The notes beneath the pieces were generated by a model that saw only the letters and a program-made list of their open reading frames with translations, ran no database searches and was not told where the DNA came from. From positions 124,001 through 188,000 of the forward strand of contig JAKCFJ010000004.1 in assembly GCA_025041175.1 (NCBI GenBank): DNA of 64,000 nt, in the 5' to 3' direction. The translations under genes were made by a program, and so were the position numbers. The stretch comes from Halobacteriales archaeon YIM A00010 (GTDB lineage Archaea > Halobacteriota > Halobacteria > Halobacteriales > Haloarculaceae). This document shows, in pieces, positions 12,190 through 54,057 of this stretch (position 1 is its first letter; every line of letters begins with the position of its first letter).

Positions 12190-12313
12190 TTTTTGGACGG
12201 GGAGCGCACGCCGGTGGCTTGAGCAGTTCGTACACTACTATAACCATCAGAGACTGTATCAATCGCTCGACGGAAGAACGCCAGTCGAAGGAGGTGCTGA
12301 ACTAGACAGTGCC
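12190..12313 (+). pseudogene. IS6-family transposase 3' remnant with terminal repeat
   Basis: A short frame reads SARRWLEQFVHYYNHQR...SLDGRTPVE, matching the end of the intact IS6 transposase at 22233-22913 (RHYYNHQRPNQALDGRTP). It ends in AACTAGACAGTGCC (12300-12313), identical to the right terminal repeat of that element. The last codons are frameshifted and everything upstream is lost. Confidence 0.75.
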
Positions 12314-19621: not shown

Positions 19622-19658
19622 ATACCGTGGTTTCGACTCACTAGCTTACTATGTTAAC

Positions 19659-20336
19659 GAGGGCGTCATAGAATGGTTCGCACACCTTGGTTACAGACTT
19701 GACGGATGGTACGCACAGGCGGTGCAGTTAACTTCTCTTTGAACCTCATACCGGGTATGAAGAAAGCCGCGATCGGGGACGTAGACCCGGCAGCGACGAA
19801 CAGTCCAGCAGCTGTTGTCCGGTTGCTCTCGCCGGTGCTCGACACGGACGGGTTGGTGATCAATTATTTTGAGGTCGAACCCGCCGAAAGTGTGGGGTAT
19901 GCGTATCATCGGCATCTCGACCAAGAAGAGGTATTCTACGTCCAGAAGGGTACAGTAACGTTTGAAACAGAAGTCGGTGGCGTAGAGGTGGACGCAGGGG
20001 AAATCGTTCGCTTCGGTCCCGGTGAGTTTCAACTCGGGCGAAATATCGGAGACGAACGTGCGCACGTACTCGCAATTGGCGCACCACGCGAGTCGGAGGA
20101 GCTTGAATATCTCCAAGACTGTCCGACCTGTGGAGAGGAGACGGTACAAGTCCCCGAAATCACAGAGAGTCCAAAGGCGATTCTGATTCATTGTACCCGG
20201 TGTGATTCGACCACCGATGAAATACCGCTTTGAATCCGTGTTCCGGTCCCGCTCAATACACACGCCACCGCACCAGAAGATTCGCTATCCATGTACCTGG
20301 AATATACTGCCTTGAGAATCGTTCTATGACACCCTC
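19659..20336. mobile_element. 678-bp mobile cassette carrying a cupin gene
   Basis: The left end is GAGGGCGTCATAGAATGG and the right end is GTTCTATGACACCCTC, an imperfect inverted pair (about 20 of the outer 24 positions match). ATGTTAAC flanks both ends exactly (19651-19658 and 20337-20344), an 8-bp target duplication as made by IS6-family enzymes. There is no transposase inside, only the cupin gene. The same ends bound the cassette at 23683-24463 and the transposase-bearing element at 52957-54057. It inserted in the upstream region of the Bat-type fragment. Confidence 0.88.
19757..20233 (+). CDS. Cupin protein with C-terminal zinc ribbon (cassette passenger)
   Basis: 158 residues from the ATG at 19757 (MKKAAIGDVDP). 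A single cupin barrel contains GYAYHRHLDQEEVFYV (metal-binding His/His/Glu) and GEIVRFGPGEFQLGRN, then a tail with CPTCG...CTRCD, a zinc ribbon. An upstream start at 19706 adds 17 residues and cannot be excluded. It is the sole gene of the mobile cassette, so it may be spread for its own benefit. The ligand is unknown. Confidence 0.8.
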   Translation: MKKAAIGDVDPAATNSPAAVVRLLSPVLDTDGLVINYFEVEPAESVGYAYHRHLDQEEVFYVQKGTVTFETEVGGVEVDAGEIVRFGPGEFQLGRNIGDERAHVLAIGAPRESEELEYLQDCPTCGEETVQVPEITESPKAILIHCTRCDSTTDEIPL

Positions 20337-20504
20337 ATGTTAACGGGAATTTCTTAACCGCGCCCTCTCGTAGCCCGTAGTGTTTTTGCCACATTGTTTC
20401 TCATAGACGACGGCACCAACGCGGGTACACAAACCGCCGAGTCGCTCCAGCTGACTTTGCAAGACGTGACGCCGTATTCGCCACAAAAAGAGGATAAATA
20501 CGCA

Positions 20505-21338
20505 TCAAACGGCCGTAATATCGAAGACCCGTTCTGCGTTCCTGTAGAGGAACAGCTCCGTCACCTCTTCGTCGAGATCGAGGACAGCCAGTTCGTCGAG
20601 GCAGTCTTCGGGCCGGATCATCGGATAGTTAGTTCCAAACAGAACGTTCTCGCTTCCGTACGTCCGGAGGAACTCGACAAATTCGTCCGGATAGCGGCGG
20701 GGTTTGTACGCCGAGGTGTCGATGTAGACGTTTTCGTACTTCGTCACGAGTGCCATCATCTCCTCCGTCCACGGGTGGCCGATATGGCCGGCAACGATCG
20801 TGAGATCGGGAAATTCGCGAGCAACGTTGTCCAAGTATGGAATCGGTCGTCCCACGTCCGAGGGTTTGAGCGGGCCGGTATGACCGACCTGCAAGCAGAA
20901 GGGAACGTCCTGTTCGACGCATTCGGCATACACCGGGTAGTACCGCCGGTCATCCGGTGGCAATTCCCAGAGCCACGGGACGTTCCGAATGCCAACAAAC
21001 CCGAGATCAGTGACGCACCGTCGAACTTCCTCCACCGCCTCCATTGGTTTGTCGAGCGGAACCGAACCGATACCGGTGAATAGCTCTGACCGCTCATCGA
21101 CGATCTCTGCAACGTAGTCGTTACTCAGCAGTGGACCCTCCGGTCCCCACCACGCCGAGATGAGTGCCAACTCGACGCCGGCGTTCTCGTACGCCTGGAT
21201 CGTCCATTCCAACGGAATCTCGGAGAAGGCTTCGTCACCTTGCCACCGACGAAGCGAGGCGAACATCTCGTGGGTGTGAAACTCTGCTGTCGGATGCTGC
21301 ATCCACGCATCCACAACCGGGACGGTATCATTGCCCAT
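20505..21338 (-). CDS. Amidohydrolase-2 family TIM-barrel hydrolase
   Basis: 277 residues. The N-terminus VVDAWMQHP holds only a partial HxH-like metal site. QVGHTGPLKP, IVAGHIGHPWTEEM and ENVLFGTNYPMIRPED match the later metal and active-site loops of the amidohydrolase-2 / dicarboxylate decarboxylase group. The terminal Asp normally found in FGSD-type loops is Asn here (FGTN), and the first HxH is incomplete (DAWMQHP), so catalysis may be altered. The substrate is unknown. It stands alone. Confidence 0.78.
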   Translation of the reverse strand: MGNDTVPVVDAWMQHPTAEFHTHEMFASLRRWQGDEAFSEIPLEWTIQAYENAGVELALISAWWGPEGPLLSNDYVAEIVDERSELFTGIGSVPLDKPMEAVEEVRRCVTDLGFVGIRNVPWLWELPPDDRRYYPVYAECVEQDVPFCLQVGHTGPLKPSDVGRPIPYLDNVAREFPDLTIVAGHIGHPWTEEMMALVTKYENVYIDTSAYKPRRYPDEFVEFLRTYGSENVLFGTNYPMIRPEDCLDELAVLDLDEEVTELFLYRNAERVFDITAV

Positions 21339-21661
21339 ACTTGTACTTCATTTTCCAATAACAAATCCTTATTGAAACGCTACAAAACGGTTCTACCGTG
21401 AGTGCTATCTATCGAGGCCACATGAGACAAGTGAATACAGATATCTGCTAATGGATGGATTCGGATTGCATGCGACTGAAGATTTGACAGCCACTCTCGA
21501 AACCACCGTGCTTTTGCCTTCCAAAAGTGGCTCCCCGTGCGGATTCGTCCAAACAGTCCGTAGAATATCCAGGTAAAGGACGATTCAAAACTCAATCATT
21601 AGTTGATACCCTGATATTTTCGAACCATCCTTACATAGATGGAGAACTAGTTGGCGTCACG
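21339..21661. other. Spacer before the transglutaminase-like gene
   Basis: No supported gene; an in-frame extension of the next gene to 21527 has unconserved sequence. Confidence 0.4.
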
Positions 21662-22240
21662 ATGAAAAATGACACAACGTCATTCCCCAATGCTCGCCTC
21701 AAGGCCACCGACGAAGCTTCGAGGCGGTTACTTGACCAAGGTCTGACCGACCTACAGGATGCAGTTCGTTACGTCCGAGATCTTCCTTACGGCCGCACTG
21801 CGAACCGAGGCGACTACCTGTCGGTTCTCAATGAAGGCGTCGGAACCTGTAGCACAAAGCACGCGCTCTTGTCGCACATATGTGAACACCAGGGAATCGA
21901 CGAGGTTCAGTTGACGCTTGGGATTTACGAAATGAACGAGGACAACACACCGGGAGTCGGGGAGGTTTTGGCGGGCTACGGGCTCGAATATATCCCCGAA
22001 GCGCATTGTTATCTCACGTACGAGGACGACCGGTTCGATTTCACCCGAGCCGATGATGGGGCCGAACCGATCGATCGGTTTCTCGCCGAGGAACCGATTT
22101 GCCCAGCCCAGATCGGTGAGTACAAGGTCGAGCGACACCGCGACTTCTTGGCTGGCTGGATCGATTCGACCGCCGTTGAGATGAGTCTCGACGACCTGTG
22201 GCAAATCCGAGAGGCCTGTATCGAGGCACTGTCTAGTTGA
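21662..22240 (+). CDS. Transglutaminase-like cysteine protease-fold protein, 3' end replaced by an IS
   Basis: 192 residues from the ATG at 21662. The catalytic triad of the transglutaminase-like fold is visible: GVGTCSTKHALL (Cys), EAHCYLTYE (His) and DRFDFTRAD (Asp). The last codons (EALSS and stop) come from the terminal repeat of the IS6 element. Removing the element and one GTATCGA copy gives ...REACIELCSENRL and a TGA, so the native protein was a few residues longer. The change is small and the protein may still work. Confidence 0.78.
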   Translation: MKNDTTSFPNARLKATDEASRRLLDQGLTDLQDAVRYVRDLPYGRTANRGDYLSVLNEGVGTCSTKHALLSHICEHQGIDEVQLTLGIYEMNEDNTPGVGEVLAGYGLEYIPEAHCYLTYEDDRFDFTRADDGAEPIDRFLAEEPICPAQIGEYKVERHRDFLAGWIDSTAVEMSLDDLWQIREACIEALSS

Positions 22241-22969
22241 GCACCTCCTCGGCAGGAGTGCGTCCGTCTAAGGCCTGATTCGGCCGCTGGTGGTTGTAGT
22301 AGTGTCTGAAGCGGCGAAGCCAGCGGCGTGCGCTGGTCGGACTGCCCCGCCAGAACGAGTGAAAGCGGTCGATGCGCATGGCGACGGTCTGGAACCATTT
22401 TTCGATGTGGTTCCGGTCTTCGTAGTCAAGGTGACCGCTCAATTCGTGGCGAGCAAGGGCAGTCAGATAGCCGCCCGCATCGACGAGAAATTCGGTGTCC
22501 TTGATGTCGTGTTGCTCGGTGAGCCGATGCAGAAACGCCGCCGCAGGGTCGGTGCCCCGACGGCTGTAGACATCCACCTCAAGCAGCAGCTTCGACTCGG
22601 TGTCGATCGCGGCGTACAGCCATTTCTCCTCGCCGTCGACTTCGATCTGTTTCTCGTCGACGGCGACCCACGATGGCGCCGCCGTCGGCGGGTCGTGCTG
22701 CGTTTCGGCCAGCGTCTCCTTCCAGTTCCAGACCGCCTGATAGCAGCGATCGACACCCAGTAGCTCCAAGACGCCCTCGACTTCTCGGACTGACAGCCCC
22801 ATCGAGTGAAGTCGCACCGCGAAACAGCGCATGGGTGTCGGCGTACGTTCGTTCTCCCAAACGTCTTGGTTGTCCACGTCCAACCGGTCTTTGAGGAGTT
22901 CGGCGAGCGTCATGACCACCACTCACTACGACCTCCTCGCTTCTCAAACTCGCTGAACTAGACAGTGCC
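22225..22969. mobile_element. Intact IS6-family insertion sequence
   Basis: 745 bp. The inverted repeats GGCACTGTCTAGTT (22225-22238) and AACTAGACAGTGCC (22956-22969) are perfect. GTATCGA flanks both ends (22218-22224 and 22970-22976), a 7-bp exact duplication where 8 bp is usual for the family. The transposase stop codon lies inside the left repeat. This is the only element in the window with an undamaged transposase, perfect ends and target duplication. Confidence 0.9.
22233..22913 (-). CDS. IS6-family transposase
   Basis: 226 residues from MTLAELLKDRLDVD; a start nine bases upstream at 22922 is also possible. An N-terminal HTH (LHSMGLSVREVEGVLELLGV) precedes the DDE core: SWVAVDEKQIEVD, TEFLVDAGGYLTA and DRNHIEKWFQTVAMR. 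It catalyses replicative or copy-out movement of the surrounding element. No frameshift is seen, so it is probably active. Remnants of close relatives lie at 12190-12313, 30163-30245 and 60088-60475. Confidence 0.88.
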   Translation of the reverse strand: MTLAELLKDRLDVDNQDVWENERTPTPMRCFAVRLHSMGLSVREVEGVLELLGVDRCYQAVWNWKETLAETQHDPPTAAPSWVAVDEKQIEVDGEEKWLYAAIDTESKLLLEVDVYSRRGTDPAAAFLHRLTEQHDIKDTEFLVDAGGYLTALARHELSGHLDYEDRNHIEKWFQTVAMRIDRFHSFWRGSPTSARRWLRRFRHYYNHQRPNQALDGRTPAEEVLN

Positions 22970-23682
22970 GTATCGAACTTTGTTCCGAGAATAGACTATG
23001 AAAATCGCTTGAGAACAAAGAAACCAACCTGATCCAAAAGCCTACAACTATATGGGACCTGACGGAAGATTGCTGATATAGGCGTTATTCACACAGTGCC
23101 GAGAGAACCGTCGACTCAATTTTTCGAAGATGCTCATTTATAGTCTCTGGTGTAACACCTATTTCATTTGCAATCGATTCTTGTGTCGTTTTTCGGGGGA
23201 GGTTGTAGTATCCATCCTTCACAGCAGTTTCTAACACCTTTCGCTGGCGTTGCGTGAGCAAGGCAGCGAGGTACTCGTGGCTTGGATTATACTCACCTGC
23301 TCGTTCAAGTGTCACGTCGTAGTTGTCTGGAATCGCACTGTTGACCGTCTTTATTGCCTGTTTGCCCCCGACGAACGTGAACTGAATCCCATCGTTAACG
23401 TGTCGAAGCGGTGTTTCGAGAATAAGCGGCGACCGAGTGATCGCTTCAAATATGGCTGCGACTTCAGATGTTGGTTTCCCGTGGAGATACGCGACGCCTT
23501 CGTCTTCACCTGTAATCTCGCAGGTCAGCACGTCAGGGTGAGTTCCCAGCAGTTCACGTGCCCTATCTAGGTCGCCGTGTAACTCATACAGGAGGACAAG
23601 CGTGTCATCAGACAGTGGGTGAACGTGGTTGATTGCGACCCGGGTGATTGATGGCTCATTCGCGAGTAAATTACTCGCCGGA

Positions 23683-24463
23683 GAGGGTGTCATAGAACTA
23701 TTCGCATGGGGGTGGGTTCACAGCGAAGTTCGATGAACCGGCTGATAAGGAGCTGTGCGTACTCAACAATGATTACTCTCGACTGAGAGTGATGCACTAT
23801 GTTTCCTGAACGTATTGAGACGGAACGACTGCATCTTGAACGGATTTCACACGACTCTGTCGATGTATTCGACCTTCACGAGTTCTACAGCGATGGCGAC
23901 GAAACTGCGGAGATGTTCGAGTACTGGGATTCGACTCCCCACGAGACGGTGAAAGAGACGTACAACTACGTGGACGAAGCTGAACAACTGTGGGATGATG
24001 CGGAGGGGGCAAAATACGTAATTCGACCAACGGAAGACGAAGACGGTGCAGGTGCTATCGCTGGAACGACGGGGCTGTACCCCGACTGGGAGAAACGGTC
24101 TGTCAACCTCGGCATTCTCCTTGACAAACAATTTTGGGGGCGCGGATATGCCGGTGAACGAGCCGATGCCCTCCTCTCTGTCGCGTTTGACCGACTTGAC
24201 CTCGAACTCGTCGTCGCCGCCCACATCGACGGGAACGAGAAGTCTCGCCGAGCAATCAAAAAGTATGTCGAACGGTATGACGGCCAATACGAAGGACTGC
24301 TGCGGAATTGGCTTCCGCTGCCCGATACCGTCGACGACGTTCACAGATATACGATTTCACGAGAAGAGTACTTCGAGGCAACCGACCGCTAAGTAGTTGT
24401 CCTGTATCGACCGATTCGGAGTAGGTGGGATTCCGGGGATGTGAACCGTTGTATGACACCCTC
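23683..24463. mobile_element. 781-bp mobile cassette carrying an acetyltransferase gene
   Basis: The left end GAGGGTGTCATAGAAC and right end GTTGTATGACACCCTC form an imperfect inverted pair of the same type as at 19659-20336 and 52957-54057. CGCCGGA is directly repeated at both flanks (23676-23682 and 24464-24470). There is no transposase inside; the only gene is the acetyltransferase. The pre-insertion gene is rebuilt exactly by removing it, which proves the borders. Confidence 0.9.
23799..24392 (+). CDS. RimJ/RimL-type GNAT acetyltransferase (cassette passenger)
   Basis: 197 residues. IETERLHLERISHDSVDVF opens the fold as in RimJ/RimL proteins, and VNLGILLDKQFWGRGYAGE carries the acetyl-CoA pyrophosphate loop (QFWGRGYA). 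NEKSRRAIKKYVERYDG follows as the usual helix after strand 5. Substrates in this group are protein N-termini, amines or antibiotics; none can be assigned. It is complete, with about 50 bp between its stop and the right repeat. Confidence 0.85.
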   Translation: MFPERIETERLHLERISHDSVDVFDLHEFYSDGDETAEMFEYWDSTPHETVKETYNYVDEAEQLWDDAEGAKYVIRPTEDEDGAGAIAGTTGLYPDWEKRSVNLGILLDKQFWGRGYAGERADALLSVAFDRLDLELVVAAHIDGNEKSRRAIKKYVERYDGQYEGLLRNWLPLPDTVDDVHRYTISREEYFEATDR

Positions 24464-24548
24464 CGCCGGATGAAACTCGTCTTCCGGCCTTAGGACGAGC
24501 GTTGTATAGCGCATGGCCAATAGTCGGAGAATGCCAGCGTATAAAATA

Positions 24549-52922: not shown

Positions 52923-53029
52923 TTACTGGTTGTTGGACACATCTTGCCCTGTTGAAGAGCGTGTCATAGAATTGTTCCCACATTCAAGTCATTCTGATTA
53001 CTGTTTCAGAGCGTTACAAGCGTAGAAGT

Positions 53030-53048
53030 CCGTGCACCTAGTGCACAG
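53030..53048. promoter_or_regulatory. Inverted repeat CCGTGCAC-N3-GTGCACAG near the left end
   Basis: A 19-bp inverted repeat lying 73 bp inside the element end. A second copy with the same half-site and spacing is at 53980-53998 near the other end. It is a possible binding site of the element's ribbon-helix-helix protein. Confidence 0.5.
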
Positions 53049-53120
53049 AGTTTGAAATCGCTTAGAGAGTACCTTTTCGTTTCCGAATAATGATCTCTCG
53101 CACTCGTTCAGCGGTAGTGT

Positions 53121-53760
53121 TCAGATAAGCTGATTCCATGCGAAGGCGAATGATCTGAGCCACCCGTTTGCAGTTTCTGCGTGGGCATTGCTGAAACAGT
53201 TTGAGAATGAAGAAATACGTCGCTTTACCTCACGAAAGATACGTTCGACGCCGTTCCGATTTCCATGTGTTCGTATCTGAAATCGAAGCCATGTTGATGA
53301 CACGCATCTTGTAATGAGTGTGAACCATCAACGAGAAACACAGCCTCTTCCACATCATGTTTTCGGCGAGTTCAGTAAGAAATGAATGAGAGAGAACCTT
53401 GTTTGTGGTCGGTTCAAGCGTTGTATGGAGTAATTCGTTTGTTTCGGGATCGACCGCAGTATACAGCCAATACTGCTCATTGTTGAGTCGGATCATGGTC
53501 TCGTCAACCGCAATGTGATCTGGACTTCGCCCATTTTCGGGCTGTATCTCAGCCTTGTGCACCCAGTTGTGAACGGTCGAACGAGCTCGTTTAACACCGA
53601 ATACCTCCGGGATAGTGACTGTATTCGAAAGATATAATCCAGTAAGATGGAGCTGAATACCGAGCTTCATAAACAGTTGTTACTTCTCGCCCCACAAAAT
53701 CCAAGTCGATGTCGTCCAAACATCCGTTGAGGCGGCGTTTTTCGGCATAGAGCACTGAAA
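53121..53760 (-). pseudogene. IS6-like transposase with three frameshifts
   Basis: Joined pieces give RRLNGCLDDIDLDFVGRE, MKLGIQLHLTGLYLSNTV, RARSTVHNWVHKAEIQ, HIAVDETMIRLN (first D), VFLVDGSHSLQDACHQHG (second D), VERIFREVKRR (E) and the tail AETANGWLRSFAFAWNQLI. Frame is lost near 53665, 53365 and 53275. The catalytic codons survive but cannot be read together, so the element no longer makes its own enzyme. Confidence 0.82.
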
Positions 53761-53772
53761 AATTGCACCGCC

Positions 53773-53958
53773 TCACACTTCATCCGTATCTGAACACCGC
53801 CGTTCAGCATGATTCGCATCCGACTGGACGAATGCTGTGAGGATAGCCTCGACGATCTCGGAGCGACTGACTTCGAGATCGTCACACTCAGCCACCAGTT
53901 CATCCATCTCTCGGACAATGTCTTCTTCCACAGCAATCCCGAACTTTTCTTTCGCCAT
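53773..53958 (-). CDS. Ribbon-helix-helix protein encoded by the element
   Basis: 61 residues. MAKEKFGIAVEEDIVREMDELV then SRSEIVEAILTAFVQ: a short beta strand plus two helices, the CopG/Arc-type fold, with an acidic tail. It is intact although the neighbouring transposase is broken. It could regulate transposase expression, bind the element ends, or act as an orphan antitoxin; no toxin gene is adjacent. Confidence 0.7.
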   Translation of the reverse strand: MAKEKFGIAVEEDIVREMDELVAECDDLEVSRSEIVEAILTAFVQSDANHAERRCSDTDEV

Positions 53959-53979
53959 AACTGAAACGCGCTAAGAATG

Positions 53980-53998
53980 CCGTGCACCAAGTGTATGG
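53980..53998. promoter_or_regulatory. Inverted repeat CCGTGCAC-N3-GTGTATGG upstream of the ribbon-helix-helix gene
   Basis: It ends about 20 bp before the ATG at 53958 (read on the minus strand), a usual operator position for self-regulation. It matches the site at 53030-53048 in half-site and spacing. Confidence 0.5.
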
Positions 53999-54057
53999 CG
54001 ATTTCAGCTGATCTAAGCAGAGGTAGCCGATCATGTGAATTGTTCTATGACACGCTC

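Follow-up and report, generated by a model that had tools for sequence, protein, structure and literature searches.

The stretch of DNA analysed here, hereafter the window, comprises 64,000 nucleotides of the haloarchaeon Halobacteriales archaeon YIM A00010 (contig JAKCFJ010000004.1, positions 124,001 to 188,000) and, judging from its sequence, carries three gene cassettes with the same ends. These would be members of a class-wide mobile family in which two fixed and unlike end modules, A (~62 bp) and B (~77 bp), enclose an exchangeable interior that usually consists of one gene. In the model favoured here, a transposase of the ISH11 type would move the cassettes in trans, leaving 6-9-bp duplications, and a resident cassette would swap its passenger with another by recombination inside A and B, staying put in the process. 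The ends, the duplications, the insertion into a gene, the diversity of passengers, the outer repeats as found in ISH11-type elements and the same-site loci with other interiors can be read directly from the DNA, and the model as a whole (cassette family, ISH11-type mover and exchange via the modules) is probably correct.

Cassettes in the window and in other haloarchaea

Cassette 1 (19659..20336, 678 bp) bears a cupin passenger and no transposase. Its termini, GAGGGCGTCATAGAATGG.. and GAGGGTGTCATAGAACGA.., are inverted to each other and are both flanked by the 8-bp target duplication ATGTTAAC (forward strand, left copy 19651..19658, right copy 20337-20344). According to the module alignments, module A (outer repeat plus inner block) occupies 19659..19720 on the forward strand and module B 20260..20336 on the reverse strand, and between them lies the gene of a cupin-domain protein (19757..20233, forward strand; Pfam Cupin_2, E 8.8e-9). 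The open reading frame (ORF) as called by the program starts at 19706, within module A, and translation more probably begins at the ATG at 19757. Cassette 2 (23683..24463, 781 bp), which likewise holds no transposase, has inverted ends flanked by the 7-bp direct repeat CGCCGGA (forward strand, left copy 23676..23682, right copy 24464-24470), with module B at 23683..23759 on the forward strand (B-end profile E 2.1e-14), module A at 24402..24463 on the reverse strand, and a 197-aa GNAT acetyltransferase in between (23799..24392, forward strand; Pfam Acetyltransf_3, E 2.8e-19). It cuts a reverse-strand regulator gene of the HVO_0513/HTH_10 type (23085..23693, with the native 5' part at 24464-24514; Pfam HVO_0513_N and HTH_10). 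When the flanks are fused at the 7-bp duplication, the reading frame is restored and they encode a continuous 213-aa regulator protein, to which the homologues of the genus align from residue 1; cassette 2 is an insertion into this gene. Its outward end opens with an ATG that provides an in-frame start for the truncated regulator. All four ends of the two cassettes score 37-42 on the end matrix, and a shuffled control (1.07 Mb, both strands) produced one position at 12 and none at 14. A preliminary description of the window, made from sequence alone, had proposed these two elements with their coordinates, ends and direct repeats (8 bp and 7 bp) and had noted that neither contains a transposase, all of which is borne out; the passengers can be called 'metabolic', as they were there, on the strength of their domain names only.

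Elements of the same build were catalogued at other loci (designated L) where both profiles matched, with A and B facing inward and at most 3.6 kb apart. Because the source loci were chosen for having the ends, in scans that were limited in extent or sampled, proportions in this catalogue are not rates. It contains 97 unique A-B elements with a median length of 614 bp, 95 of them without a match to an ISH11- or IS6-type transposase, and the interiors form 79 clusters among the 91 of sufficient length for comparison. Of the 95, 40 are flanked by 6-9-bp direct repeats (8 with one mismatch) vs 2 of 285 shifted controls; a stricter duplicate filter leaves 93 elements, 79 clusters among 89 and 39 with a direct repeat (controls 2/279). 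In an earlier set of 119 unique end pairs, 34 had an IS5-like transposase, 1 an IS6 match only and 84 neither, and direct repeats were present in 45 of the 84 with neither and 18 of the 34 with the IS5-like transposase, compared with 0 or 1 of 118 for shifted flanks.

The passengers of A-B elements recognized by Pfam are diverse. Besides GNAT (the window, L024 and L400) and cupin proteins (the window and L132, with L133 under the cut-off), they include a MazG-like protein (L057), HD_4 (L103), a hexapeptide protein (L124), PIN (L258), a class-I Trp/Tyr-tRNA synthetase (L322:2532-4233, with the direct repeat GTGTGTTC), SnoaL_4 (L323), DUF433 with DUF5615 (L281), a PAS/HATPase_c kinase (L398), FMN_dh (L335, catalogued as L266/L282), Amphi-Trp (L312), TrkA_C (L413), HicA with DUF7387 (L026) and DUF7344 (L403, with L022 under the cut-off). 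MarR (L045) falls under the Pfam cut-off. Pairs detected via the outer repeat only contain an Mrr nuclease (L025) and, next to its likely antitoxin, a PemK toxin (L089). Small ORFs make up many of the remaining passengers, and a membrane segment is often predicted in them; a Pfam scan of the L017, L060, L152 and L001 proteins gave no match, and the glyoxalase-like look of the L001 passenger, unmatched in two Pfam scans, is not claimed as a name. By eye, passengers lie in mixed orientation relative to A and B. At L103:4553-6712, in a metagenome-assembled genome of the Halobacteriales, two cassettes lie 25 bp apart that closely resemble each other in module A but not in their passengers.

The B-end profile matches 251 of 391 genomes sampled across the class, in 58 of 86 genera (E 1e-4), and a scan of genome contigs with the end pattern gave at least 118 loci, all haloarchaeal by record titles. 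A scan of viral contigs gave one match (L287). In the window's own genome there are two further end pairs, C2:683846-684255 (410 bp, duplication GTCCAGT) and C3:97026-97884 (no clear duplication), and more end matches beyond the pairs. The preliminary description had suggested as a check to look for other intact genes enclosed by the same ends and direct repeats; this check was positive, and the catalogue and genome scans agree with its view of a system with many unrelated passengers, one that reaches far past a single replicon.

That the cassettes are mobile elements is a reading in which our confidence is very high. A 776-bp element is present at L267 and L404 in different flanks, each copy with its own duplication (TATAAA and TAGTATAA), the two loci being 93% identical over 807 bp gapped and the interiors 97% over 614 bp. 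L143, at a contig end, and L428, without a duplication, are identical over 374 bp, and a 374-bp element is identical between plasmids from Halobacterium salinarum and from Halorhabdus tiamatea. The notion that the ends are fixed structural or regulatory repeats and immobile, for which conservation alone would speak, is scarcely credible in view of the excess of direct repeats over controls and of the gene insertion with its restored frame. Two observations nevertheless weigh against the favoured model: 55 of the 95 cassettes have no direct repeat, and neither the cupin nor the GNAT cassette of the window was seen a second time, since among 60 loci retrieved via these proteins a clean end pair was found only at the two window loci. 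Searches with the two proteins (146 genomes of the family) returned many homologues, and a plasmid search with the cupin cassette two matches, weak and partial. For the GNAT family, five comparisons were made, of which one involves an internal stop; the other four gave ratios of non-synonymous to synonymous substitution (dN/dS) of 0.07-0.12 and indicate that the family is under purifying selection, which is no proof of function within a cassette because the compared homologues sit outside cassettes. On a Halalkalicoccus plasmid (L432), a GNAT homologue aligns to bases 74-730 of cassette 2; the DNA upstream of 3044 resembles a decayed B module by eye only, which would imply an old cassette and is not used as support.

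Composite structures also occur. In L093, from Halorarius halobius, an HSDR_N gene lies between two cassettes and the duplication TAGAGTA is found at the outermost ends only. Genes might be captured through such composites, a deletion within which would leave a new single-gene cassette.

End modules and the putative mover

An alignment of 58 elements revealed that the cassette ends are conserved past the repeat of the insertion sequence (IS), and curated alignments of 47 elements for each module, from which divergent elements and the ribbon-helix-helix group were left out, define their layout. Module A starts with GAGGGTGTCATAGAACnGTTCnCAyACC, followed by a variable stretch and then GAATCGnTAAGTACAG; module B has the same outer part, followed by GGTGTTGATTTCA, a variable stretch and GGTGAATnnGCCGnTAAGTAGGnnTGCG. 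The inner blocks are kept across unrelated passengers, and may be needed sites or homology arms. The terminal repeats of 1.07-kb ISH11-type (IS5-like) elements, whose 330-aa transposase partially matches the IS1182 and IS5 models, under their cut-offs, match A and B alike over the outermost ~24-28 bp. Closely similar 1069-bp DNA in public plasmids carries the annotations IS5-like ISH11 family and ISHma6. At L420, whose element spans 1890-2398, an extra B-like end of ~80 bp lies just beyond it at 2414-2496 and may be a tandem or nested one.

Because these outer repeats match, an ISH11-type transposase is the most likely mover, and we consider it quite probable that such enzymes move the cassettes. 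Duplications vary in length, mostly 6-9 bp, in cassettes and ISH11-type elements alike, in agreement with ISH11 copies with 6-, 8- and 9-bp duplications tabulated in a published account (PMC10264941). At E 1e-80, 100 of the 391 genomes (41 of 86 genera) encode a close transposase of the ISH11 type, which is present in 84 of the 251 B-positive vs 16 of the 140 B-negative ones (odds ratio 3.9, p 1e-6, relatedness uncorrected); over five thresholds the odds ratio of this co-occurrence is 3.0-4.2 (p <= 3.5e-6, likewise uncorrected). Several findings speak against this mover. A close ISH11-type transposase is absent from two thirds of the B-positive genomes, and from 36 of the 71 genomes with the strongest B-ends. 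In the window's genome no working copy was seen at E 1e-80, since the sole one found (L003, G000:C4:576500-581000, element 1768-2836) has an in-frame TGA. Finally, ISH11-type ends have no inner blocks (12 examples), and 30 ISH11-sized pairs score 10-31 on the end profiles (median 24), compared with catalogue medians of 46 (A) and 54 (B).

The difference in ends and the 36 genomes would both be expected if the mover were an unseen autonomous element with outer repeat and inner block, ISH11 keeping the outer repeat alone by descent, and transposase-like ORFs of other kinds do lie inside L062, L072 and L080. These few ORFs are mutually unlike and, by eye, resemble later, nested insertions, and L156, with ends near-identical to those of L072, has none. 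No A-B element with a plausible autonomous transposase of its own was recognized, in a survey in which transposase families were not all systematically screened. Together with the duplication lengths, which agree with those of ISH11 (PMC10264941), this leaves the unseen element as a rather unlikely mover.

The preliminary description had instead cast an IS6-like enzyme as the mover, from an apparent IS6-like element with the same ends at 52957-54057, and L068 also has an IS6 transposase between such ends. By the end matrix, genuine ends lie at 52957 and 54057, without a direct repeat, and what they bound is a third cassette, of the 395-406-bp ribbon-helix-helix group, split by an IS6. Its two main pieces match the 395-bp element of Halomicrobium katesii at L090, which carries a ribbon-helix-helix gene, at 80% and 78% (this L090 relative matches RHH_1 at E 8.2e-4, slightly under the cut-off). 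The degraded IS6-family insertion (53113..53800, reverse strand), with a transposase fragment under the curated cut-off, has ends of its own and its own 8-bp direct repeat CGTTCAGC (53105-53112 and 53801-53808). It separates the 5' part of the passenger gene (53801..53958, reverse strand) from the 3' part, beyond the IS6 and below 53112, and its removal leaves a cassette of 405 bp with an intact ORF. The shared ends were thus correctly recognized and their attribution to IS6 was not, because the IS6 has its own duplication inside the cassette. Moreover, of 30 loci with the nearest relatives of the IS6 in L068, 2 had any such end and none had a pair around the transposase. IS6 can thus be discarded as the parent element, and that an IS6-family enzyme moves the cassettes is highly improbable.

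A second, fuller IS6 lies between cassettes 1 and 2 (22225-22950), with a 229-aa transposase above the NCBIfam cut-off and an end of the type GGCACTGTCTAGTT, to which a 25-bp match is found at 12289-12313. In the 395-406-bp elements (L120:3623-4027 and relatives), the ribbon-helix-helix stretch matches pNRC100 70897-71080, and in the tables of PMC10264941 an ISH2 copy on that plasmid spans 70690-71220, ISH2 being a miniature inverted-repeat transposable element (MITE) of ISH8. Ribbon-helix-helix is apparently one passenger used by two end systems. The 405 bp of cassette 3 would fit MITEHsal2 if the tabulated 411 and 413 bp count 6- and 8-bp duplications.

Different passengers at the same site

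Comparison of flanks over 145 element records, in which some loci are present twice, yielded 11 pairs with both flanks common and dissimilar interiors, which collapse to five cases; two more pairs have only one short flank in common. Case 1 opposes L270 (86-aa ORF) to L291/L024 (GNAT), L270 and L291 being on one contig (G397:C2), and case 2 opposes L092 of Natrialba taiwanensis (81-aa ORF) to L124 of N. aegyptia (hexapeptide protein). Case 3 is L304 vs L308, case 4 L279 (178-aa ORF) vs L281 (DUF433/DUF5615), and case 5, the most diverged, L416 vs L430. Outside the elements, 1.1 and 1.5 kb are syntenic in case 1 and several kb in case 2; the corresponding stretches measure 1.6 and 2.6 kb (case 3), 0.7 and 1.5 kb (case 4), and 2.2 and 1.0 kb (case 5). 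Going inwards from the A and B ends, homology stops after 62 and 77 bp in case 1 (where A is identical over 62 bp and B over 77 bp between L270 and L291), 62 and 89 bp in case 2, 57-58 and 82 bp in case 3, and 77-80 and 76 bp in case 4. A third passenger at four of the sites was not found among the plasmid matches listed.

As these five pairs keep flanks and modules while holding unrelated interiors, passengers appear to have been replaced in place, which we regard as very probable. An alternative is that the differences reflect independent insertions into hot spots, or differing deletions from a multi-gene ancestor. Deletions do occur at the site of case 1, since the right flank of L270 lacks 155 bp adjoining module B, and multi-gene elements exist (L077 and L093). 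Furthermore, cases 2 and 5, which are different loci, have ~26 bp of flank beside module B in common and so may not be independent. Yet such histories are made unlikely by the extent of the flank synteny (0.7-2.6 kb per side in cases 3-5 and several kb in case 2), by the use of the same duplication site at both loci of case 4, and by the fact that in cases 1-4 homology stops at or near the module limits with no interior in common.

Because cassettes have their modules in common, replacement in place could come about by a trade of passengers through them. On one side of cases 2, 3 and 4, differences are concentrated in the inner part of the module: 5/150 in the flank vs 6/27 in the inner third on the B side of case 2, 1/150 vs 8/18 on the A side of case 3, and 4/150 vs 4/21 (with 5/20 in the middle third) on the A side of case 4. 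This is as a crossover inside the module would leave, the outer part being that of the resident and the inner part that of the donor, and the exchange might proceed by double crossover. No such excess is clear on the other sides of cases 2-4, nor in cases 1 and 5, which argue in the opposite direction. Recombination within the modules is a route that we favour with some reserve.

Relation to known elements and significance

Transposase-free, gene-bearing elements with IS-like inverted repeats, usually with a target duplication, are already known as mobile insertion cassettes (MICs), such as MIC231A1 of Bacillus cereus, described as moved in trans by IS231A, and mic-qnrD of Proteeae (PMC3913671). 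The haloarchaeal cassettes are alike in having IS-related inverted repeats, an intact gene unrelated to transposition (by Pfam matches, several tested ORFs being without match), target duplications well in excess of controls, and no transposase inside, as far as the ISH11 and IS6 types that were screened are concerned, for which 95 of the 97 elements gave no match; a few of the 95 contain transposase-like ORFs of other kinds, apparently nested by eye. They differ from MICs as portrayed there in being class-wide, with ~80 interiors, two different two-block modules and five same-site passenger changes. Two mics with similar repeats and unlike content on related plasmids are shown in the same source (PMC3913671), a possible parallel to the exchange in place. 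ISH11 (IS5-like) and ISHma6, although they share with the cassettes the outer 24-28 bp and varied duplication lengths, have a transposase and no inner blocks, and the cassettes encode no IS5-like transposase. Haloarchaeal MITEs (the ISH2, MITEHsal2 and HqIRS families) also combine IS ends with the absence of a transposase, and ISH2 has one ORF; as described in PMC3119063 and PMC10264941, they are unlike the cassettes in being mostly short and non-coding, and in Haloquadratum walsbyi the ISH2 type alone is named there as likely coding (PMC3119063). Among the 95 cassettes, 86 are at least 300 bp long, many with Pfam-matched genes, and a few elements of 139-150 bp do fit the MITE description. In open PMC full texts, no description was found of the breadth, the paired two-block modules or the in-place exchange. 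Gene cassettes without transposase are known as MICs, and it is the two-block ends and the exchange in place that look new.

In integrons, gene cassettes are single genes exchangeable between fixed borders. The haloarchaeal units would be analogous in exchanging single genes, and unlike them transpose with target duplications. It is tempting, if still tentative, to view the end modules as a gene-exchange platform, in which the inner blocks would be the site of swapping in situ, via homologous recombination or a dedicated enzyme, giving a class-wide pool of single genes with an integron-like role and the build of IS ends. A locus could then change its gene while the mobile frame persists, and many short orphan ORFs of haloarchaeal genomes would become members of one system. 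This may represent a route by which single genes, those of toxin-antitoxin systems and even that of a tRNA synthetase pass between haloarchaeal replicons and species.

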